From positions 3,738,823 through 3,802,822 of the forward strand of contig NZ_CP036265.1 in the NCBI RefSeq assembly GCF_007743815.1: a stretch of 64,000 nt of DNA, in the 5' to 3' direction. Position numbers and translations under genes: made by a program. The DNA is from Alienimonas californiensis. Lineage in GTDB: Bacteria > Planctomycetota > Planctomycetia > Planctomycetales > Planctomycetaceae. This document shows positions 50,405 to 62,787 of the stretch, one piece after another (position 1 is the first letter of the stretch; each line of letters opens with the position of its first letter). The notes beneath the pieces were generated by a model. That model was not told the origin of the DNA. It searched no databases and worked only from the letters and a program-made list of their open reading frames with translations.

Positions 50405-50429
50405 TTCGCCGTCGCCGTGAGGCGGCGCG
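50405..50429 (+). repeat. Family-A single arm after the Hsp70 gene
   Basis: Identical to 1409-1433. 13 bp after the Hsp70 stop. A lone 6-bp-stem hairpin, too weak to be sure of terminator function. Confidence 0.75.
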
Positions 50430-50494
50430 AACGCGGGGTTGCGCATGAAGACTGTCCCGCCGCGTATCCCCTTTCGCCGATGCGTCGTCCGCGG

Positions 50495-50500
50495 GATACT
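50495..50500 (+). promoter_or_regulatory. GATACT -10-like element, six bases before ATG
   Basis: GATACT, six bases, ATG 50507. Five of six in the TANNNT scheme plus the same spacing as other genes here. Confidence 0.35.
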
Positions 50501-50506
50501 CGCCAC

Positions 50507-52066
50507 ATGCTCGCCCGCCTCGCCGCCGCCGTTCTCGCCAGCGGACTCGCCGCCGGGGGGACGTTCGCCGCCGAGGCGCCGCCGGGACGAGTGGAGTTCC
50601 TGCTGCTCGCCCCTCGCGGGCCGGTGCGGGTGGCGGTGGACGTGACGGTCGATCGCCAGCCCTTCACGGACTCCGCCGCACGCTATCGGGACACGCTGCT
50701 GGCCTCCGTGGACGCCGACGGCGACGGCCGCGTCACCCGGGCCGAGGCCGCCCGCACGCCGACCCCCCGGGCGCTGGGCGCCGGTGCGAACGCCAATGAC
50801 GCCGTCGAAGAATTGCTCGCCCTGTTCGACGCCGCCGACGAGTCCGGCCTGCCGGCCGAGCAATTCCGCGCCTGGGTCGAGGGGGTGATGGGGCCGCCGC
50901 TGCGGGTTCGGCAACGCTTCGCCGGCGGGGACGCCGCGGACGTGGTCCACGTCCTGGACGCGGACGGCGACGGCCGCCTCACCCCGGAGGAACTGCGGAA
51001 CGACCAGTCGATCAGCCACGGCGTCGCCGGGCCGTACGACTTCGACGCCGACGGTACCCTCTCCGCGGCGGAACTGGCGCCCTTCCGTTCCGCGACGCAG
51101 CGGGCCGAACGCCGACACTTTCCGCCCTCCAGCCCCTTTCGATTGCTCTCCCCCGCGGCGGCGCCCGGACTGTCCGCGGACCTCGCCGCCCGTTACGGGA
51201 CCTCCGAAACGCCGCCGGAGCCGCACCTCGAACTGAGCGTGCGGCTGATCGCCCGCAGCTTCGGCCTGCCGCGGCTCGCCGTGGTCGAGAACCGGGCGCC
51301 GGAGCGGCTGACGGTCGTGCCGGACCGGCGCTCCCTCACCCTCACCGTGGACGCCGACGAGGCCGCCGGGGAGCCGGGGCTGGAGGTCGAGTTTGCGGCG
51401 GATCGGGTCGAACTGCTGGGCTCCGACGCGATCTCGCTGGGCCTGCTGGACATGGTGCGGGCGGACGCCGACGCCAACGACTACCTCGACGAAATGGAGT
51501 TTCCCGCCGCGAACCTCCCCGGCGGGCCGGAGTTCGAGGACGTGGACCGCGACGGCGACGGCCAGGCGACCCGGGAGGAAGTGCGGGCCTATCTGGAGGA
51601 GGATCAACGGTTGGCGAACAGCCGGATCTACCTGCTCAGCGAGGCGGCGCGGTCGGAGTTGTTCGGCCTGCTGGACGCGAACGGCGACGGTCGACTGACC
51701 CCGGCCGAGCGGGTCGCCGCCGCGGGGGCCTTCGCCGCCTCCGGGTCGGACAGCGGGGCGCTGGCCTCGCTGGACCGCGACGGTGACGGGGCGGTGGTCC
51801 CCGGCGAACTGATCGGCCGGTTCACGCTGCACCTCGGCCCCGGCCGGGCCCCGGACCGCCCGCCGTCGGAGGAGGAACTGGAGACGATCCGCGGCCGCGA
51901 GCCGAGCGTTCCGACCGAGGAGGGCCCGGAGTGGTTCCGCCGCTCCGACCGCAACGGCGACGGGGCGGTCACCTGGGCGGAGTTCGTCGGCCCCCGGGAT
52001 GCCTTCGTGCGGTTCGATGCCGACGGCGACGGCTCCCTCACCCCGGACGAAACGGCGGCGAAATGA
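50507..52066 (+). CDS. Secreted multi-EF-hand calcium-binding protein
   Basis: 519 aa from ATG 50507, which opens directly on a signal peptide (LARLAAAVLASGLAAGGTFA); ATG 50480 would add a nine-residue charged leader. Nine EF-hand-type loops can be counted, for example DADGDGRVTRAE, DADGDGRLTPEE, DFDADGTLSAAE, DRDGDGQATREE, DANGDGRLTPAE, DRDGDGAVVPGE, DRNGDGAVTWAE and DADGDGSLTPDE. A beta-rich segment lies between loops 3 and 4. Probably a Ca-dependent extracytoplasmic binding or structural protein. Confidence 0.88.
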   Translation: MLARLAAAVLASGLAAGGTFAAEAPPGRVEFLLLAPRGPVRVAVDVTVDRQPFTDSAARYRDTLLASVDADGDGRVTRAEAARTPTPRALGAGANANDAVEELLALFDAADESGLPAEQFRAWVEGVMGPPLRVRQRFAGGDAADVVHVLDADGDGRLTPEELRNDQSISHGVAGPYDFDADGTLSAAELAPFRSATQRAERRHFPPSSPFRLLSPAAAPGLSADLAARYGTSETPPEPHLELSVRLIARSFGLPRLAVVENRAPERLTVVPDRRSLTLTVDADEAAGEPGLEVEFAADRVELLGSDAISLGLLDMVRADADANDYLDEMEFPAANLPGGPEFEDVDRDGDGQATREEVRAYLEEDQRLANSRIYLLSEAARSELFGLLDANGDGRLTPAERVAAAGAFAASGSDSGALASLDRDGDGAVVPGELIGRFTLHLGPGRAPDRPPSEEELETIRGREPSVPTEEGPEWFRRSDRNGDGAVTWAEFVGPRDAFVRFDADGDGSLTPDETAAK

Positions 52067-52178: not shown

Positions 52179-53978
52179 ATGTCGCCGACCTCACCGCCCC
52201 GCGAGTTGGACCGGATGCTCTCCGCGATCCGCCGTCGCCTCGCCTGGGCGGCGTTCGGTCGGGCGCTGCTGTGGGCCGCCGCCGCGGGCTGCGTGGCCGG
52301 GGCCTGTCTGGTGCCGCTGGCTTGGTGGCGGCCGGACTGGCTGCCCACGCTGATCGCCGCCGCTGTGCCGGTCGCGGCGCTGCTGGCCCTCGGGCTGGCG
52401 TGGGCCTTCCGGGAACGGCCGACGCGGGAGGACGCCGCCAATCGGGCCGACCGCTTCGCCGGCACGAAAGACCTGTTCCTCACCGCGGCGGAGTTGGACC
52501 GCCACGAGCGGGCGCCCGCCTTCGCCCCGCTGGTCCTCGCCGACGCCGCGGCCCGCGTGCCGGCCGTCGACCCCGCGGCCGCGGTCCCCTTCGACCTGCC
52601 GGGCCGGCGCCTGATCCCGGCCGGGGCGGCGCTGGCGGTGCTGGTGGGCACGCTGTTCCTCGTGCCCCGGGTCGACCCGTTCGGGGCCGTCGCCGCCGCG
52701 AAGGAAGCGGAAACCGCCGCGAAGAACTCCGAACGCACCGCGGACGAAGCGAAGCGGCGGACGGAGGAACTGAAGCGTTCGCAGCCGGAGAGCGAACTCT
52801 CCCCGGAGGTCGCCTCCGCGGTCCAGAAGCTCGCCGCCGACCTCAAGCAGACCAAGCGGGGCGAGGTGAAGGCGAACCGCGAAAAGCTGGCCGAACGACG
52901 GGCGGACCTCGGCAAACTGTGGCGGAACGTCAGCGCGGAGCAGGCCCGCGGGTTGCTCGCCGAGGAGGACGACCGCCGCAGTCTGGGCATAAACCCGGAC
53001 GCCGACGAGCGGAAGAAGTGGCTCAGCGATCTGAAGCAGGGAAGCGCGGAGAGCGTCCGCGAAGCCCTGAACCGCATGATGGCCGAGGCCGCCGAGGCCG
53101 CGAACGAATCCGACCCCGCCGCCCGGGCCGAGAAGATGCAGGCCCTGCGGGAGCAGGCCCGCAAGCTGGAGAACTTCGCCCGCAACGACGCCGGCGACGA
53201 CCGCCTCGCCGAGGCGATGCGGCAGGCCGGCGAACAGTTGCGTAACGCCGCCGAGCAGGCGAAGGCCGAAGCGAACGGCGAGGGCTCCCCGGAGGCCAGC
53301 CGCGCCGCGATGAAGCAGGCCGCGGAAGCCGCCAAGGCGGTGCTCGAACAGGCCGGGCTGGAGACCGAAAAGCTCGCCCAGGCGGCCCGCGACATGGCCG
53401 AGTTGGAGCAGGCCCTCGAAGCGGCCCGGCAGGCCGGACAGCTCAACGAGATGGGCGAACTGGAAGGCCAGGAGGCCGCCGACGCCGCCTCCATGGCGGA
53501 GTTTCTCGAGGTCTATGAGGAGATGCTCGCCGAGAGCGGGCAGCAGGCGACCGAGGCGACCGCGGGCAGCGTCCGCGGCTCCGGCGACGGTGAGGGAGAC
53601 GGTGAGGGAGACGGCGACGGTGAGGGGGACGGCGACGGCGAGAGCAGCGGCGGGACCGGCCGCGGCGAGCGCGAGGAGGTCGACGGTCGCGCCATGGACG
53701 AAGCCCCCGACGCCAAAACCGGCTTCCGCACCGAGGTCTCCAAGAGCCACCTCGTCGCCGGCAAAACGCTGATGAGTCTCAAATCCAAGGGCGACAGCGA
53801 ACGCGGCGAACGCACCACGGAGTACATGGAGAACCTCGCCCGGGTGAAGGAGGGCGTGGACGAGGCGATCTTCGCCGAGGACGTGCCCCCCGGGTATCGC
53901 GGCGGCATCCAACGGTACTTCGACGCCCTCGGCCCCGGCGCTGACGCCGCCGGCAATCCGGGCGCCGACGATGAATGA
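52179..53978 (+). CDS. Membrane protein with long coiled coil and acidic repeat
   Basis: 599 aa from ATG 52179. Two N-terminal helices (about 25-45 and 50-70), a third near 148-165, then a large helical region of Glu/Ala/Lys coiled coil (about 175-460), a GDGEGD low-complexity run near 470-490, and a conserved-looking C-terminal segment (HLVAGKTLMSLKSKGDSERG, DVPPGYRGGIQRYFDALGP). The end piece recalls planctomycete DUF4175-type proteins. Function unknown. TAGACT lies at 52141-52146. Its stop overlaps the next gene by 8 bp, so they may be co-transcribed. Confidence 0.78.
   Translation: MSPTSPPRELDRMLSAIRRRLAWAAFGRALLWAAAAGCVAGACLVPLAWWRPDWLPTLIAAAVPVAALLALGLAWAFRERPTREDAANRADRFAGTKDLFLTAAELDRHERAPAFAPLVLADAAARVPAVDPAAAVPFDLPGRRLIPAGAALAVLVGTLFLVPRVDPFGAVAAAKEAETAAKNSERTADEAKRRTEELKRSQPESELSPEVASAVQKLAADLKQTKRGEVKANREKLAERRADLGKLWRNVSAEQARGLLAEEDDRRSLGINPDADERKKWLSDLKQGSAESVREALNRMMAEAAEAANESDPAARAEKMQALREQARKLENFARNDAGDDRLAEAMRQAGEQLRNAAEQAKAEANGEGSPEASRAAMKQAAEAAKAVLEQAGLETEKLAQAARDMAELEQALEAARQAGQLNEMGELEGQEAADAASMAEFLEVYEEMLAESGQQATEATAGSVRGSGDGEGDGEGDGDGEGDGDGESSGGTGRGEREEVDGRAMDEAPDAKTGFRTEVSKSHLVAGKTLMSLKSKGDSERGERTTEYMENLARVKEGVDEAIFAEDVPPGYRGGIQRYFDALGPGADAAGNPGADDE
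53583..53642 (+). repeat. Tandem GDGEGD codon repeat
   Basis: 60 bp, about 20 codons of alternating Gly with Asp or Glu, made of GGCGACGGTGAGGGAGAC-type units. In-frame length change by slippage is likely between strains. Confidence 0.75.
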
Positions 53979-55035
53979 GGCCGCCGCGTCCCGGCGGGCG
54001 TTCCTCGGGGCGGCGTCAGCGGGCCTGTTCCTTGGCGCCGCCGGCTGCGGGGGCCGCGGCGGGGAGGAGGTGGTCCTTTACTGCGCCGCGGACCGCCTGC
54101 ACGCCGAGCCGATTCTGCGGGAGTTCGAATCCCGCACCGGCGTCCACGTACGGGCCAAGTTCGACACGGAGGCCACAAAAAGCCTGTCGCTGGTCGGGTC
54201 GCTGATCCGCGAGGCCGACGCCCCCGTCTGCGACCTGTTCTGGAACAACGAACGCGGCGGCACGGAGGACCTCGCCGCCCGCGGGCTGCTCGCCCCGCAC
54301 CGGGGGGAGGCGTGGGAGGCCACACCGCCGCAGCACCGCGACCCCGAAGGCCTCTGGTGCGGCTTCGGCGGCCGGCTGCGGGTCTGGATCGTCAACACTG
54401 ACCGCCTGCCCGCCACCCGCGAGGCGGTCGAGGCGGAACTCGCCAAGGAGGCGGACCTCAGCTTCGCCTACGCCAACCCCCGCTACGGCACCACGCTGAC
54501 GCACTTTTCGTTGCTCCACCGCGAGTTGGGCGACGACGGGCTGCGGGCGTTTGCGGAGCGTTTGGACGACGCCGGAGCGGTCACGGCGTCCGGCAACGCG
54601 GCGGTGAAGGACCTCGTCGCCGCCGGCACGGTCGCCTGCGGCTGGACCGACACCGACGACGCCTATCTCGCGATCGAAGCCGGCGCTCCGGTCGAGACGC
54701 TGCCCGTCGAAGTCCCCGGCCCGCCCGGACCGGCGCCGATCTGCATCCCGAATACTGTCGCCCTGACCCGAGGCGGCCCGAACGCGGCGCACGCCGCCCG
54801 GCTGGCGGATTATCTGCTTGGCAAAGAGGTCGCGGTGCGGCTGGCGAACGGGCCGTCGCGGCAGATTCCGCTCACGCCGGTCTCCGGGCCGCTGCCGGAG
54901 GACGTGAAGCAGTTCGCGGGTTTGGCCCGCGACGCCGTGCCGCTGGCGGGGCTGGCCCCGCATCGAGACGCCGTACTGGCGTGGCTGTCCGGCGAAGAAA
55001 CGGCCGGCGCCTCGGCGAGCGGCGACGCGGCGTGA
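53971..55035 (+). CDS. ABC importer substrate-binding lipoprotein (iron type)
   Basis: 354 aa from ATG 53971. Twin-Arg-like start (ASRRAFLGAASAGLFLGAAG) ending with a lipobox GAAGC, so exported and lipid-anchored. Solute-binding fold of the Fe3+/spermidine class: EEVVLYCAADRLHAEPILRE, FDTEATKSLSLVGSLIREAD, LRVWIVNTDRLPATREAVEA and late PICIPNTVALTRGGPNAAHA. The permease and ATPase follow with stop/start overlaps (GTGA, ATGA). Substrate is probably iron by resemblance of the binding protein; not proven. Confidence 0.88.
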   Translation: MNEAAASRRAFLGAASAGLFLGAAGCGGRGGEEVVLYCAADRLHAEPILREFESRTGVHVRAKFDTEATKSLSLVGSLIREADAPVCDLFWNNERGGTEDLAARGLLAPHRGEAWEATPPQHRDPEGLWCGFGGRLRVWIVNTDRLPATREAVEAELAKEADLSFAYANPRYGTTLTHFSLLHRELGDDGLRAFAERLDDAGAVTASGNAAVKDLVAAGTVACGWTDTDDAYLAIEAGAPVETLPVEVPGPPGPAPICIPNTVALTRGGPNAAHAARLADYLLGKEVAVRLANGPSRQIPLTPVSGPLPEDVKQFAGLARDAVPLAGLAPHRDAVLAWLSGEETAGASASGDAA

Positions 55036-56489
55036 GTCTGTGGCCGAGCGTCCTGTTTTCGCTGGTCCGGGCGGCGTTGGTCGTCGGGCTGGCGTTGCCC
55101 GCGGCGGCGCCGATCGCCCGGCGGCTGCGGGAGGACCGGGCTGGGCTGTGGTGGGCGGCGACGCTCGCCCCGCTGCTCGTCCCCGAACTGCTGACCGGCT
55201 ACGGATGGAGCAATTTTTCGTTGTCGCTCGCCGCAGATCCGGGGGCGAACGAGGCGCTGACGGCGGCGCTGATCTGGGGCCGGTGCGTCTGCGCCGCGGC
55301 GGCGTTGCTGGCCGTCGCCCCCGCCCCGGCCCGCACCGCGTCCGCGGTGTTCCTCAGAAAACTTATGTGGTCGCTAACGCCGAGGCCCCGCGGGGCCTCG
55401 GCGTTAGGGGCGTGGCTGAAGGAAGGGGCGCTGCGAACCCTCGCCCGGTTCGGGCCGGCGGCGGGGGTGGCGGGGCTGTACGCCTTCGGGCAGTTCGAGA
55501 CGCCCAGCCTCGCTGGGACGACGGCGTGGACCGTCACGCTATTCGACGCTCACGCCCGGATGATCGACCTGTGGGATTCGCTCCGGCTGGCGTGGCCGGC
55601 CGCGGCGGTGCAACTGGTCGGGCTCGTCCCGCTGCTGATCTGGCTGCGGGGCGTGACGGGGCCGGGACGCCGGGACGAACGGCGGGCGCCAGCGTCGCGG
55701 CGGTCGAACTTTGTTGCCGGGCTGACCCTCGCGGCGGCGGGCGGGTTGACGGTGGTCGTTCCCGCCGCGGTGGTCGCCGGGGAGACGGGGGCGGAGGGGT
55801 TTCGCACGCTGGCCGAAAGCGGCTGGCGGGCGCAGCAGTTCGCGGCGGAGTGCGGCCGATCGCTGGCGATCGGCACCGTGGCGGCCGCCGTGGCGACCGG
55901 ACTGCTGTGGGCGGTCGGCCGGGTGCGGGGGCCGGCGGGGACGGTGCTGCTGGCGGGGCTGATCGCCCCGGGGCTGTGCGGTTCGCTGATCGTGGGGCTG
56001 GTCGTGCAGGCCGGCCTGACGGCCGCGGCGGCGCACGGATGGCCGGGGGCGCGGGCGGTGCGGGACTCGGCGGTTCCGTTGATCCTTGCCCTCGCCGTGG
56101 TCCTCCTGCCGCGGGCGGCGCTGCTGCGGGCGTTCGCCGAGGGCCGGACCGCGGGGCGGTTCCTCACGCGGTTGCTGCGAACCGGCACGCTGTCCCAGCG
56201 GCGGGCGGGGGGGCGGTTGTGGTGGGGCCTGACCGGCCGGGCGGCGTGGGTGCGGGGGGGGCTGCTGACGCTGTGGGCCGCCGCGGACGTCGCCGCCGCC
56301 GCCGTGCTGCTTCCGCCGGGGCTGGAGACCGCCCCGCCGGGCCTCTACAACCTCATGCATTACGGCCACAATGCGGTGCTGGGGGCGCTCTGCCTGCTCA
56401 ACACCGTCCTCCCGGCCGTGCTGTTGGCGCTGGGAGCGTGGGCGGCGCCGCGGCTCGCGGGGGCGCCCGTCGGTATGGTGCAGCGATGA
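55032..56489 (+). CDS. ABC importer permease (FbpB-like, two-domain)
   Basis: 485 aa from GTG 55032, which overlaps the binding-protein stop (GTGA). About twelve membrane helices in two halves. Each half should carry an EAA loop; the second includes LPRAALLRAFAEGRTAG. Residues about 115-125 ([11 protein letters not shown]) come from a perfect 32-bp palindrome lodged in the loop between RKLMWS and GAWLKEGALRT in the first half, so this loop may be longer than in relatives. Its stop overlaps the ATPase ATG (ATGA). Confidence 0.85.
   Translation: MSLWPSVLFSLVRAALVVGLALPAAAPIARRLREDRAGLWWAATLAPLLVPELLTGYGWSNFSLSLAADPGANEALTAALIWGRCVCAAAALLAVAPAPARTASAVFLRKLMWSLTPRPRGASALGAWLKEGALRTLARFGPAAGVAGLYAFGQFETPSLAGTTAWTVTLFDAHARMIDLWDSLRLAWPAAAVQLVGLVPLLIWLRGVTGPGRRDERRAPASRRSNFVAGLTLAAAGGLTVVVPAAVVAGETGAEGFRTLAESGWRAQQFAAECGRSLAIGTVAAAVATGLLWAVGRVRGPAGTVLLAGLIAPGLCGSLIVGLVVQAGLTAAAAHGWPGARAVRDSAVPLILALAVVLLPRAALLRAFAEGRTAGRFLTRLLRTGTLSQRRAGGRLWWGLTGRAAWVRGGLLTLWAAADVAAAAVLLPPGLETAPPGLYNLMHYGHNAVLGALCLLNTVLPAVLLALGAWAAPRLAGAPVGMVQR
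55375..55406. repeat. Family-B palindrome inside the permease coding region
   Basis: Perfect palindrome identical to 3392-3423, here with an open frame (codons CTA ACG CCG AGG CCC CGC ...). As a strong GC hairpin it might also pause transcription or translation of this operon. Confidence 0.85.
56474..56479 (+). promoter_or_regulatory. TATGGT -10-like element, six bases before ATG
   Basis: TATGGT inside the end of the permease gene, six bases before ATG 56486. Could give a separate, leaderless ATPase transcript, or be chance. Confidence 0.35.
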
Positions 56490-58375
56490 CGGCCCCGCTG
56501 TTCACCCTGTCGCACGTCTCGCTGCCCGGCCGCCCCGGTCGTCCGCGACTGGACGACGTCTCGCTGACGATCCCCCCCGGCGTCACCGCGGTGGTGGGGG
56601 CGAGCGGGGCGGGGAAGTCGTCGTTGTTGGAGGTGTTGGTGGGGTTTGAGGCCCCGAGTTCGGGGATGATTAAGCGGGGCGCGCCGCCTAGCGGCGACGG
56701 CGAAGCGGGGGGACTGTTTTGGGTTCCTTCGGACCTCGGCCTGTGGCCAGGGGAGACGGTGATGGGGCACCTGCTCGCGGTGCAGCCGGAGCGGGACGAG
56801 GCGGCGGCGGAGGCGCTGCTGGATCGCTTCGGCCTCGCCGGCGTTGCGGACCGCCGGCCGGGGACGTTGTCGGCGGGGGAGCGATCTCGGTTGGCCCTCG
56901 CCCGGGCGGTGGCGAGCGGGGCGGGCGTGCTGGTGTTGGACGAACCGCTGGCTCACGTCGACCCCGCCGCGCTGCCCGGGCTGTGGGCCGTGTTGCGGGA
57001 GCATTGGGACGGGACCGCGGACGGCGTGCGGCGCTCCGTCGTCTTCGCCATCCACGACCCGGCGGCGGCGCTGAGGGAATCGACCCACTGCGTGGCGCTG
57101 GCGGACGGGCGAGTGCGGTTCGCCGGGCCGACGACCGAACTGCACGAGAACCCGCCGGACCGGGCGACCGGGGCGCTGCTCGGGCCGCTCAATGAACTGC
57201 CGGACGGCCCCCGGCGGTTCGTTCGGGCCGAACGGCTCGAGTTGGCCCCGCAGGCGGACGGGCCGCTGACGGTCGTGCGCACCGCCCCCGCCGGCCCCGT
57301 CACCACCACCGAACTGACCGACCCCGCGGGAACGCGCACCGTGCTGCATCATCGTCCCGGTCCGCCGCTGCCTGTCGGGGCCCGGGTGGCGACGCGGCTG
57401 GCGTTCGCCCTGCTGGCGGCGGTTCTGCTCGGCGTCGCGGCGGGGTGCGACGGCGGGGGGGCGGACGGGCCGGCGCTGAGGTTCGCGGAGGTGCGGGTGC
57501 GGGCGACGCCGAACGCCGGACCGCAGTTGCCGGCCCCGCGGGGCGTGGGCATCGGTCCCGGCAACGAGGCGTACGTGCTGGACGACGCCGGCCGGGTGCT
57601 GGTGTTCTCGCCGGAGGGGGAGGAACTGCGGCGCTGGGACATGCCCTCCAACGTGCAGGGCAACCCGGAGGGCATCTGCGTCTACCGCCCGCCGGGTGTG
57701 GACGAGTGGCTCGTCGCGGTGGCGGACACGCACTACCACCGGGTCGTGCTGTTTACGACCGCGGGGGAGGTGGTGACCGAGTGGGGCGTGGAGGGGGACG
57801 AACCCGGCAACTTTCGATTCCCCGTCGCCGTGACCGCCGACGACGCCGGCCGGCTGTACGTCGGCGAGTACGGCGGGAACGACCGCGTGCAGGTCTTCAG
57901 CCCTCACCCGGAGAACGCCCCGCTGCGGTCGATCGGTTCGTTCGGCACCGGGCCGGGGCAGTTCAGCCGGGCCAGCGGCGTGGCCTGGGTCCCTCCGGCC
58001 TCCGCGGGCGGCGACGGCGAGAGCGGCGACGCCTTCGTGCTGGTCGCGGACGCCTTCGGCGATCGCATTCAACGCTTCACGACGGAGGGCGACTACCGCG
58101 GCGTGCTGGGCGGGGACGACGCCGTCTCGCTGCACAGCCCCTACGACCTGGCCCGCGCCGCGGACGGCACACTGTGGATCCCGGAGTACCACGGCGGCCG
58201 GATCACGGCGCTGCGGGCCGACGGCACGCTGCTGGGCCGGTGGAGCGGCGACGCGGATTCCTCGGATGGGAGGACCGGCCCGCTGGTCACCCCCTGGGGG
58301 CTGGATGTGGACCGAACGGGCCGCGTCTGGATCGCGGATACGGGCAACCGGCGGCTGGTGACGCTCGTGCCCTGA
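56486..58375 (+). CDS. ABC ATPase reading through into an NHL-repeat lipoprotein
   Basis: 629 aa from ATG 56486 with no stop between the parts. Residues 1-300: ABC ATPase with Walker A GASGAGKSS (38-46), signature LSAGE (128-132), Walker B VLVLDEP (147-153), H190; the Q-loop Gln appears replaced by S82 in VPSDLGLWP. A TOBE-like end follows. Then ATRLAFALLAAVLLGVAAGC with lipobox Cys at 321, and six NHL propeller blades (RVLVFSPEGEELRRWDMPSN and so on). GTG 57386 (residue 301) would start a normal 329-aa lipoprotein. Residues about 65-73 come from a palindromic arm. So either a fusion or two products. Confidence 0.82.
   Translation: MTAPLFTLSHVSLPGRPGRPRLDDVSLTIPPGVTAVVGASGAGKSSLLEVLVGFEAPSSGMIKRGAPPSGDGEAGGLFWVPSDLGLWPGETVMGHLLAVQPERDEAAAEALLDRFGLAGVADRRPGTLSAGERSRLALARAVASGAGVLVLDEPLAHVDPAALPGLWAVLREHWDGTADGVRRSVVFAIHDPAAALRESTHCVALADGRVRFAGPTTELHENPPDRATGALLGPLNELPDGPRRFVRAERLELAPQADGPLTVVRTAPAGPVTTTELTDPAGTRTVLHHRPGPPLPVGARVATRLAFALLAAVLLGVAAGCDGGGADGPALRFAEVRVRATPNAGPQLPAPRGVGIGPGNEAYVLDDAGRVLVFSPEGEELRRWDMPSNVQGNPEGICVYRPPGVDEWLVAVADTHYHRVVLFTTAGEVVTEWGVEGDEPGNFRFPVAVTADDAGRLYVGEYGGNDRVQVFSPHPENAPLRSIGSFGTGPGQFSRASGVAWVPPASAGGDGESGDAFVLVADAFGDRIQRFTTEGDYRGVLGGDDAVSLHSPYDLARAADGTLWIPEYHGGRITALRADGTLLGRWSGDADSSDGRTGPLVTPWGLDVDRTGRVWIADTGNRRLVTLVP
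56680..56704 (-). repeat. Family-A single arm inside the ABC ATPase coding region
   Basis: Reverse-oriented 25-bp arm, read as GAPPSGDGEA. It lies between Walker A and the Q-loop region, at the beta-hairpin where ATPases are variable in length. Confidence 0.85.
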
Positions 58376-58491
58376 CGCGGCGGCCCGCCGGTCGCGGATT
58401 CGTCGTGAACCGGTTGTGCCCGCGGCGACGTTGTTCCGTAAGCTGACGCCGTTCCGCTCGGTTCGTTCCCTTCGCCCCGGCCCCCCGCCCG

Positions 58492-61400
58492 ATGGCCCCC
58501 CCGCCGCCCCGCCGGCCCACCCTCACCGCCGCCGGGCGGCGTGAGCCGGCGGGCGCGGGGGAGCGGCTGTGGCGCTCGCTGTTCCCGGCGGCCCGCACCC
58601 CGGTGCGGTGGCGGGACGGCTGGCCGCTGGCGGCGTTCGGGCTGATCGCGATCGGGCTATTCGTCTGGCTGGAACTCGACCGCCGGGTGCTGTTCGCCCG
58701 GCCGACGCTGTTCGGGCTGTTGCTGTTCGCCCCGTGGGTCTGGTGGCTGGCCGTTGCGAACCGCGGCGGATTGGGCACGACGCGGGCGGAGGCCTCCACG
58801 TTCCTGCGGCTCTGCCTGCTCGGGTTGTGCGTCGCGGCCCTGGCGGAGCCGCGGGCGGTGCGGGAGCGGGACGTGACCAGCGTGGTGTTCGCCCTGGACG
58901 TCTCCGATAGCGTCGGCCGCAGCGTGGAGAGCCAGGCGCTGGAACTGTTCAGCGGGGCGGTCGCCGCCAAGCCCACCACCGACGAGGCCGGCCTGGTCGT
59001 GTTCGGCCGCAACGCCGCGGTGGAGCTGCCGCCGAAGAAAAGCGTCGCCTTCGAGGGCGTCATCAACTCCCAGGTGGACCGCGACGCGACGAATCTGGAG
59101 CAGACCCTCAGCCTGTCCGCGGCGATGATTCCTGAGGAGAACGCCGGCCGGGTGGTGCTGATCTCCGACGGCACGGAGACCGAGGGCCGGCTCGCCTCGG
59201 AGCTGGATCAACTGCGGGGCCGGGGCATCAAGGTGGACGTGTTGGCGGTGGACTATGCTGGCCGGGAGGAGGTCTGGCTGGAACGGCTGGACCTGCCGCG
59301 GTTCGTGCGGGAAGGGGAGAGCTACGAGGCCAGTGTGGTGCTCAGCAGCCTCGGCGCCGGCGCCGGCACGCTGACCCTCACCGAAAACGGCGAGGAGATC
59401 GCCCGGGAGCAGGTGGACTACGCCGCCGGCAAGAACCGGTTCAGCTTTCCGATCCGCCTCCGCGGCCCCGGCTACTACGAGTACGCCGCGACGATCAAAG
59501 CAAACGACACGGCCTCCGGGGAGCCGGGCGACGGCGTGGAGGACAACAACACCGCTCTCAACTACCTCTATCTGGAGGGGGCGGGGAAGGTGCTGGTCGT
59601 GACGGACCCGGGCGGCGATCCGCGGGACGTGGAGGATTTCGTCGCCGCCGCCCGCGAGGGGGAGCGGGAGGTCACGGTGATGGACGGCTACGCCTTCCCG
59701 CGGGACGTGCTCAGCCTGATGCCCTACGACCTGATCGTGTTCGCCGGCGTGCCCGCGGACGTCTTCGACGCCCGCCAACTCGCCGCGGTGCGGACGGCCG
59801 TCTCCGACATGGGCGTGGGCTTCCTGATGCTCGGCGGGGAGAACAGCTTCGGCGCCGGCGGGTATCAGAACACCCCCGTCGAGGAGGCGTTGCCGGTCGA
59901 TCTGGACATCACCCGCCGCAAGGTGCTGCCCAAGGGGGCGCTGGTCATCATCCTGCACACCTGCGAGTTCCCGCAGGGCAACACCTGGGGCAAGCGGATC
60001 TGCAAACGGGCGATCAAGGTCTTGGGCGATCAGGACGAATGCGGCGTGCTGGTGGCGGACTACGTCGAGGGGGAGGAGTGGCTGTTCGAACTGACGCCCG
60101 CGGCCCGCTACCCGGAGCTGGTGCCCAAGATCAACGCCGCCCAGATCGGGGATATGCCGGACTTCGCCCAGACCATGAACGCCGGCCTGAAGGCGCTGAA
60201 AGACAGCGACGCCAGTGCCAAGCACATGATCATCATCTCCGACGGCGACCCCAGCCCGCCGTCGCCGGCGCTGGTCAAGCAGTTCGCCGACGCCCAGATC
60301 GCGATCAGCACCGTCGCCGTCTTCCCGCACCAGGGCGACCGGGCCAGCCTGAACACGATGCGCGGCATCGCCGCCGGCACCGGCGGCCGGTTCTACCTGC
60401 CGGACGACCCGAACCAACTGCCCGGCATCTTCGTGAAGGAGGCGAAGACCCTCCGCCGCACGCTGATCCAGAACAACACCGTGCAGCCGGAGGTGGCCCT
60501 CGGTCACCCGATCCTCAAGGGGCTCGGGCCGCTGCCGCCGGTGCGGGGCTACGTGCTAACGACGCCGAAGGAGGCGCTGACCGAACAGATCCTGCGGGTG
60601 CCCTCCGACGAACAGGTCGCCCCCGGGGAGTACGATCCGATCCTCGCCGTCCGCCAGTTCGGCCTCGGCCGCACCGGGGCGTTCACCGCGGACCTCGGCC
60701 CGAACTGGGGCGCCGACTGGGTCACGTGGGACGGCTACGGCCCGTTCGTGCGGCAGCTCATCACGCACCTGGGCCGGGTCCGCAAGCAGGGGCACCTGCG
60801 GATGAGCACCTACACGGACGGCTCCGACGGGGTGATCGTTGTGGAAGACTTCTCGCCCCAGGAACGCTTCCTTGAGATCACCACCTCCGTCGCCGGACCG
60901 CGAGACCGCACGGAGACCGTTTCGCTGGTGCAGGTCGGGCCGCGTCGGTATCAGGCCCGCGTGCCGCTGTGGGGGAAGGGCCGTTACCAGGTCATCGGCC
61001 GCTCTGCGACGGTCGGCGGCGGCGCCGCGGAAGCCCCCGCCGCGGCCCCGGCGCCCGAGGGCCCCACGCCCATGGGCACCATCGCCGGGGCGAACGACGC
61101 CATCGAGGAGGAGCCGGTCGGACCGGCGGACGACGGCACGGAGCAGGTCGCCGGCGGTTTCATCCTGCCCTATAGCGCCGAGTACCTGCGGTTCCGCAGC
61201 GACCCGATCGTGTTGAAACGGGTCGCCGAACGCACCGGCGGCCGGGAACTGATCGTCGACGAGAACACGCCGAAAACGCTGTTCACCGAGGACCGCCAGC
61301 CGAAGCGCAGCAGCCGGCCGATCTTCGACTGGTTGCTGATCCTCGTGGCCTGCCTGATCCCGCTGGACATCGCCGTGCGGCGGGTGCAGCTCGACTGGGC

Positions 61401-61671
61401 GCTGGTGCGGGAGCTGTTTAAACGGGAGAAACTTGGCACGGCGACCGCCGGCGCCGGCGGGCCGACGCTGGAGGGCCTGCTCGCCAAAAAGCGGGAGAGC
61501 TCGCCCCCCTCACCCGGCCGTCGTACCCCGAGCAGAACGGGTGAATCACGTGGGGTTTCGCAGGCGCCCGCGAAACCGCAAGCGGACGTCGCCCCGCCGA
61601 AGAAACCGGCCCCGCCGGCGAACACCACCGCGGCCCTGCTGGATTTGAAGAAGAAACGCGACCGGTCCTGA
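58492..61671 (+). CDS. VWA-domain membrane protein with amidotransferase-like region
   Basis: 1059 aa from ATG 58492. Helices near 43-60, 73-89 and 105-120; VWA domain from about 130 with MIDAS D136-V-S138-D-S140 and LISDGTETEGR; a beta region (VREGESYEASVVLSS); then a ThuA/glutamine-amidotransferase-like Rossmann region starting VLVVTDPGGDPRDVEDFVAA and including GFLMLGGENSFGAGGYQNTP; a long beta part; a last helix near 943-963 and a Lys/Pro-rich tail. Common neighbour of MoxR in planctomycetes, probably an envelope-stress or complex-assembly module. The tail has hairpin-rich DNA (61507-61577). Confidence 0.88.
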   Translation: MAPPPPRRPTLTAAGRREPAGAGERLWRSLFPAARTPVRWRDGWPLAAFGLIAIGLFVWLELDRRVLFARPTLFGLLLFAPWVWWLAVANRGGLGTTRAEASTFLRLCLLGLCVAALAEPRAVRERDVTSVVFALDVSDSVGRSVESQALELFSGAVAAKPTTDEAGLVVFGRNAAVELPPKKSVAFEGVINSQVDRDATNLEQTLSLSAAMIPEENAGRVVLISDGTETEGRLASELDQLRGRGIKVDVLAVDYAGREEVWLERLDLPRFVREGESYEASVVLSSLGAGAGTLTLTENGEEIAREQVDYAAGKNRFSFPIRLRGPGYYEYAATIKANDTASGEPGDGVEDNNTALNYLYLEGAGKVLVVTDPGGDPRDVEDFVAAAREGEREVTVMDGYAFPRDVLSLMPYDLIVFAGVPADVFDARQLAAVRTAVSDMGVGFLMLGGENSFGAGGYQNTPVEEALPVDLDITRRKVLPKGALVIILHTCEFPQGNTWGKRICKRAIKVLGDQDECGVLVADYVEGEEWLFELTPAARYPELVPKINAAQIGDMPDFAQTMNAGLKALKDSDASAKHMIIISDGDPSPPSPALVKQFADAQIAISTVAVFPHQGDRASLNTMRGIAAGTGGRFYLPDDPNQLPGIFVKEAKTLRRTLIQNNTVQPEVALGHPILKGLGPLPPVRGYVLTTPKEALTEQILRVPSDEQVAPGEYDPILAVRQFGLGRTGAFTADLGPNWGADWVTWDGYGPFVRQLITHLGRVRKQGHLRMSTYTDGSDGVIVVEDFSPQERFLEITTSVAGPRDRTETVSLVQVGPRRYQARVPLWGKGRYQVIGRSATVGGGAAEAPAAAPAPEGPTPMGTIAGANDAIEEEPVGPADDGTEQVAGGFILPYSAEYLRFRSDPIVLKRVAERTGGRELIVDENTPKTLFTEDRQPKRSSRPIFDWLLILVACLIPLDIAVRRVQLDWALVRELFKREKLGTATAGAGGPTLEGLLAKKRESSPPSPGRRTPSRTGESRGVSQAPAKPQADVAPPKKPAPPANTTAALLDLKKKRDRS

Positions 61672-61716
61672 CCCGCCCCCGCGGGCTCCCGGCCTCCTTC
61701 CCCCGACGTTCGACGC

Positions 61717-62787
61717 ATGACCGACCTCCCCCCGCCCGACGCCTCCCTCCCCGCTCCGGACGGGGCGCCGGCGCCCGTCGACCCGGACCGCCTGCGGGCC
61801 GAAGCCGCGGAGTTCCGCACGATCTTCGAGCAGGTCCGCACAGAGGTCGGCCGCGTGATGGTCGGGCAGGTCGGGGTGATCGAAGCCGTGCTGACCGCCC
61901 TGTTCGCCGGCGGCAACGTCCTGCTGGAGGGCGTTCCCGGGCTCGGCAAGACGGAGCTGGTGAAGGCCCTGTCGAAGGTGTTGGACCTCGACTTCAAACG
62001 CATCCAGTTCACCCCGGACCTGATGCCGGCGGACATCGTGGGCACCCAGGTGATGAGCGCCGACGAGCACGGCCAGTACCGCTTCGAATTCCGGCAGGGG
62101 CCGATCTTCACCCAGCTTTTGCTGGCCGACGAGATCAACCGGGCCAGTCCGAAGACGCAGTCGGCCCTGCTGGAAACGATGCAGGAGGGTAGCGTGACCA
62201 CCTCCGGCACGCGGTACGTCCTGGAGCAGCCGTTCTTCGTGATGGCGACCCAGAACCCGCTGGAACAGGAGGGGACCTACCCGCTGCCGGAGGCTCAGCT
62301 GGACCGGTTCCTGTTCAAGGTCAACGTGCCGCTGCCGGACCGGGCGGAGCTGAACGAAATCGTCGGCCGGACGATCCTCAAGCAGCCGATCGACCCGGCC
62401 CAGATCCTCGACAGTGCCGCGATCCTGCGGCATCGGCGGACGCTGAACAACGTGGTCGTCACGGACGCCGTGCGGGACTACGCAGTGCGGCTGGTGCTCT
62501 CCACGCACCCGCAGGCCGTGCTGGCCCAGGGCGAAGCCGGCGAGGCGGTCACCCGGTACGTAAAGGCCGGCGCCAGCCCGCGGGCCGCGCAAAGCCTCAT
62601 CAAGGCCGCCCGGGTCCGGGCCCTGGCGGAGGGGCGCCCGCATGCGGCGTTCGAAGACGTCGCCCACTTCGCCCCGGCTGTGCTCCAGCACCGCGTGTTG
62701 CTGAACTACGACGGTCAGGCCGACGACGTGAGCGTGCCGGACCTCATCGCCGATCTCACGAAAAGCCTGCCGGAGCGGGCGGCGTGA
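61717..62787 (+). CDS. MoxR-type AAA+ ATPase
   Basis: 356 aa from ATG 61717. AAA+ chaperone of the MoxR branch: acidic, Pro-rich N-terminus; Walker A EGVPGLGKT (71-79), Walker B LLLADEIN (134-141), sensor region MATQNPLEQEGTYPLPEAQL, and an arginine-finger/lid domain ending with AALFED-like VAHFAPAVLQHRVLLNYDG. Partner genes VWA, DUF58 and BatA surround it, the usual arrangement, with GTGA overlap to the next gene. Likely inserts cofactors or assembles complexes with VWA proteins. Confidence 0.94.
   Translation: MTDLPPPDASLPAPDGAPAPVDPDRLRAEAAEFRTIFEQVRTEVGRVMVGQVGVIEAVLTALFAGGNVLLEGVPGLGKTELVKALSKVLDLDFKRIQFTPDLMPADIVGTQVMSADEHGQYRFEFRQGPIFTQLLLADEINRASPKTQSALLETMQEGSVTTSGTRYVLEQPFFVMATQNPLEQEGTYPLPEAQLDRFLFKVNVPLPDRAELNEIVGRTILKQPIDPAQILDSAAILRHRRTLNNVVVTDAVRDYAVRLVLSTHPQAVLAQGEAGEAVTRYVKAGASPRAAQSLIKAARVRALAEGRPHAAFEDVAHFAPAVLQHRVLLNYDGQADDVSVPDLIADLTKSLPERAA

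Follow-up and report, generated by a model that had tools for sequence, protein, structure and literature searches.

The window, a stretch of 64,000 nucleotides of the Alienimonas californiensis genome, was found to contain a fused gene at 56486-58375 of the forward strand, in which an ABC ATPase is followed by a TOBE domain, a lipoprotein signal and an NHL propeller in a single frame (629 aa). The ORF scan found 629 open codons ending in the TGA stop at 58373-58375, as the sequence-only reading had claimed when it described an ATPase and a TOBE-like end running into a lipoprotein signal without a stop. The GC content of the gene is 0.75, which makes long chance frames common, and the same frame was found to extend accidentally backward to 55040.

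The first importer gene (53971-55035, forward strand) encodes an FbpA-like substrate-binding protein (SBP_bac_11/8) with an N-terminal export signal; it is found upstream in the relatives too, and the nearest solved relatives of its product are the iron ABC-transporter binding proteins 3wae and 4elo (1.5e-10). Its end is overlapped by the gene of a divergent importer permease (54981-56489, forward strand, start uncertain), which gave no Pfam or NCBIfam match and whose position is occupied in some relatives by homologues of 29-40% identity; it was taken as the importer membrane subunit because of its place and its neighbours. The ATG at 56486 overlaps the permease stop (ATGA), as seen in operons whose translation is coupled. 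The importer is putatively of the ferric-ion type, on the basis of the distant similarity of the binding protein to iron-binding proteins. The order binding protein, permease (of weak similarity), ATPase, NHL protein, VWA/glutamine-amidotransferase-like protein and MoxR was found to be kept in Planctomycetota and Verrucomicrobiota, with the ATPase and the NHL protein either fused or split. The cassette (52179-62787) also includes a coiled-coil/low-complexity protein, and its order is kept in both phyla, suggesting that the importer and the MoxR/VWA pair are functionally linked. The MoxR ATPase also gave a weak match to bpMoxR from the MoxR-vWA-propeller ternary systems. Just upstream of the cassette, 50417-52066 encodes a protein rich in EF-hand motifs that is predicted to be exported.

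The ABC ATPase domain (residues 1-237; 56486-57196, forward strand) was found to contain the Walker A motif GASGAGKS, the signature LSAGE, the Walker B motif VLVLDEP and the H-loop His190, and matched ABC_tran (PF00005, 4.5e-23) over residues 22-156. The residues G38, S40, G41, G43, K44, S129, G131, E132, D152, E153 and P154 were invariant in 36 homologues and H190 was nearly so. The signature is of the form LSxGE rather than LSGGQ, and a Q-loop glutamine was not evident in the ATPase sequence. The TOBE regulatory domain (residues 238-305; 57197-57400, forward strand) was recognised in the AlphaFold2 model and by alignment of the homologue profile to FbpC 3fvq (over 10-310) and to CysA 1z47 (over 21-314); since both alignments reach to about residue 310, the domain was considered complete to its end. 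The top Foldseek match of the ATPase part was 9j4r, the FbpC of Thermus FbpBC. By its motifs, its TOBE domain and its gene neighbours, the ATPase is of the FbpC/CysA importer type. In the FbpC structure the regulatory TOBE domain lies at the base of the dimer (PMC2896483). The otherwise intact low-GC fused homologue L016 (G020) was found to contain an in-frame TAA in its ATPase part, away from the junction and right after the ABC signature (LSQGER*RLSVARA), which is either a draft error or the mark of a broken gene.

The junction signal ATRLAFALLAAVLLGVAAGC ends at Cys321 (TGC, 57446-57448). It contains a charged n-region, for which the last TOBE strand (residues 300-305 in the AlphaFold2 model) doubles, followed by a hydrophobic h-region (residues 306-317; 57401-57436, forward strand), modelled as a helix over 306-316, and by the internal lipobox AAGC (57437-57448, forward strand), which has the form [GAS]C. 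With the lipobox Cys of each locus assigned by alignment, Cys321 was invariant in all 85 fused loci, and the residue before it was G in 81, S in three and A in one, all of them residues allowed there in a lipobox. The lipobox is, as judged by this alignment, under selection, and the signal was rightly called a real lipoprotein signal. In the fused homologues the Cys is preceded by an uncharged run of 13 residues (median), with 11-18 residues in all but one locus; this run is likewise short in the split lipoproteins. The strict PROSITE lipobox core was present in 55 of the 85 fused loci vs 28 of 34 split ones; lipoboxes off this core carry P, N, C, Q or H at positions -2 to -4. In the full frame the signal is internal, at residue 321, and not at the N-terminal position by which lipoproteins are defined. 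The genome was also found to encode both Lgt (1.1e-48) and LspA (2.7e-26).

The six-bladed NHL beta-propeller (residues 335-629; 57488-58372, forward strand), proposed earlier from the sequence, was recovered in the model as about 24 strands of high pLDDT. It matched NHL PF01436 over residues 602-624 (8.8e-11), and Foldseek matched it to the NHL domain of Thin (6d69/6xg7, TMt 0.82-0.84), the range being 0.79-0.84 when the TRIM71 and TRIM2 NHL domains are included; the homologue profile also aligned to the NHL propellers of Thin and TRIM71. The propeller residues D414, T415, H416, E461, D522, E567 and D618 (within 57725-58339) were invariant in 36 homologues and may make up a site for binding or catalysis. 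The spacing between Cys and propeller did not differ between fused and split forms, being mostly 26-27 residues. AlphaFold2 gave concordant models for the window protein (mean pLDDT 90.3) and for L035, a Gimesia-like homologue without an internal start (92.0), with an ATPase and TOBE part whose last strand passes straight into a helix, followed by a disordered lipobox and the propeller. In both models two confidently predicted domains are joined strand to helix with no linker between them; in the window protein these are strand 300-305 and helix 306-316. The pTM of 0.53 in both models means that the relative placement of the two halves is not given by them.

The relatives were searched in three sets, namely 59 relatives, then 170 genomes of the family, and then other families together with Verrucomicrobiota. 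Among the 59 relatives, about 18 genera gave matches over the full length in a single frame (40-73% identity), and many more fused matches, complete genomes among them, were found in the 170 family genomes. After deduplication the total came to 85 fused loci and 36 loci with two adjacent genes, one frameshifted draft locus being left out of this count. The fused loci span about 25 genera of the family of the window, other planctomycete families and Verrucomicrobiota, where the isolate Chthoniobacter flavus Ellin428 carries the fused form. A frame kept open merely by GC content was ruled out, because relatives with a GC content of 42-55% also carry the fused form as an open frame and because stops interrupt the other two frames in 84 of the 85 loci within 80 codons around the junction (4.4 stops on average), whereas the fusion frame contains none there. 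The codon changes at the junction between close relatives were mostly synonymous; the ATPase-column codon comparisons of L046/L049 and L056/L059, being out of register, were left out. Only short, unremarkable repeats were found at the junction.

In the split relatives the same two proteins were found to be adjoining, the ATPase ending shortly past the same TOBE strand and the lipoprotein opening with the same lipobox, and the two fused halves were shown to be orthologous to the separate adjacent genes. The split ATPases mostly end about 9-20 residues past the motif that opens the last TOBE strand; these end points and the modelled strand-helix join indicate that fusion merged the TOBE end with the n-region of the signal. 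In a tree that leaves the junction out, the fused and split states require at least 11 changes, five of them forced by well-supported branches. The fusion is, on this comparison, conserved and has been repeatedly gained or lost. In one locus (L080 of G067, about 1282-1870) the ATPase and the NHL part share a frame, with an early in-frame stop in the ATPase and a new ATG before the lipobox; its TOBE part is not recognisable, and it looks like the fission of a once fused gene.

The 36 relatives with two separate genes could be read in favour of a stop codon lost from this genome, as had been suggested, or of a sequencing error, and a comparison with relatives does find separate adjacent genes in these 36. 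Against it, a stop before 57386 is absent in most relatives, the junction being open in 85 distinct fused loci of two phyla, among them a relative of the same genus at 73% identity and complete genomes, and a lost stop or sequencing error is accordingly given a negligible probability. The sequence-only reading had also pointed to GTG 57386-57388 (forward strand; codon 301), 20 codons upstream of Cys321, as an internal start, so that two overlapping coding units would give a long protein from 56486 and a lipoprotein from this or a similar start. The GTG is usable in this genome and would yield a normal signal, and among ATG, GTG and TTG, the only starts counted, some candidate lies 13-30 codons upstream of the Cys in 68 of the 85 fused homologues. 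However, 17 of the 85 have none there and 11 have none within 13-40 codons, and the position and presence of the candidates differ even inside one genus; in g57, a Gimesia-like genus with 16 loci, ATG was found in none and six loci had no candidate of any kind at 13-30 codons. An ATG 13-40 codons before the Cys was present in only 17 of 85 fused genes vs 24 of 36 split ones (Fisher p = 1.7e-6, the related loci not being independent). The rate of candidate starts at 13-30 codons upstream is 0.075 per codon vs 0.051 in the neighbouring TOBE region, a rise that the Val, Leu and Met codons of the hydrophobic stretch would also explain. No Shine-Dalgarno-like sequence was found before GTG 57386, and neither an internal promoter, in a scan for the sigma-70 consensus only, nor a terminator was found near the junction. 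Internal initiation would moreover leave the persistent lack of a stop in many lineages unexplained. Across the homologues an internal start is not a general feature of the fused genes, and two overlapping coding units are considered rather unlikely.

The continuous frame, and the positive charges before a hydrophobic segment that lies between the two domains, would also fit an uncut bitopic protein, in which segment 306-320 serves as a permanent anchor and joins the ATPase and the propeller across the membrane. Such an anchor does not predict a Cys preceded by G, S or A in 85 of 85 loci, the uncharged run with its median of 13 residues is short for a stable anchor, and the orthologues are separate lipoproteins. 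In type I importers the TOBE domain is located at the cytoplasmic, membrane-distal end. Since this end is distal and no linker follows it in the window protein, a permanent tether is hard to fit with permease docking, the tethered ATPase being hardly able to reach the permease, and cutting is favoured; the uncut protein is thus held to be improbable. The conserved frame, the conserved lipobox and the lack of conserved internal starts point instead to a natural polyprotein whose internal signal inserts it N-in and which is lipidated and cut at Cys321 through Lgt and LspA into an ATPase and a lipoprotein, a reading to which we give a probability of about 0.6. The suggestion that one gene makes two products is, on these features, probably correct.

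In the polyprotein reading, the ATPase and TOBE domains would remain cytoplasmic and the hydrophobic segment after the last TOBE strand would act as an internal Sec signal that exports the NHL propeller. Lgt would then lipidate Cys321, followed by cleavage by LspA before this residue, which would yield, in a fixed 1:1 ratio, an ATPase ending in a short hydrophobic tail and a propeller anchored by its lipid. The tail may be trimmed by an intramembrane protease such as RseP, which eliminates signal peptides from the Escherichia coli membrane (PMC8144685). The earlier objection that a fusion would place a lipobox inside a cytoplasmic protein would be resolved if the lipobox belongs to an internal signal with the N-terminal part in the cytoplasm and the C-terminal part outside. 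The topology, the lipidation, the cleavage and the accessory role of the propeller in the importer are all predictions.

The ferric-ion importers FbpABC (FbpC ATPase 3fvq, 9j4r) resemble the importer genes of the window: an FbpA-like binding protein and a permease come before an ATPase that bears a TOBE domain. FbpC stops after its regulatory domain whereas the window frame continues into a lipoprotein, and the window was found to contain a shorter TOBE part and a very divergent permease. The separate NHL lipoproteins of split relatives (L021, L124, L131) have the same lipobox, propeller distance and gene order, but each has its own start codon and its own gene. The cytochrome b/c1 precursor FbcH of Bradyrhizobium holds a membrane part and an exported one in a single chain, which is cleaved at a signal sequence inside it; FbcH uses signal peptidase I and cytochromes, whereas the window protein would use LspA and an ABC ATPase. 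We know of no ABC ATPase that is fused to an exported lipoprotein. In the OpuA-type ABC importers an extracytoplasmic binding domain is fused to the permease (PMC11065425), so that an extracytoplasmic domain is carried by an importer subunit in both; OpuA joins a permease to a substrate-binding domain, whereas the window protein joins a cytoplasmic ATPase to a propeller with an internal lipobox. A literature search that covered mostly work outside subscription journals turned up nothing comparable, be it for internal lipoboxes, for polyproteins of bacteria or for fusions of NHL and ABC proteins. The components are of known kinds, and their combination is, as far as found in the literature examined, undescribed.

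More tentatively, LspA might be the protease that matures an ABC transporter in a widespread polyprotein; its cut would free the cytoplasmic motor and the lipid-anchored periplasmic subunit equally and would make the assembly of the motor await its exported partner. A real cut would make a large cytoplasmic-periplasmic polyprotein a substrate of LspA, which would widen the known substrate range of a drug target, and the gene would break the N-terminal-lipobox rule on which signal predictors and gene finders rely. Should no cut occur, the recurrent fusion still connects an NHL lipoprotein that is unstudied with an importer of the iron type, and offers a testable system in culturable species.
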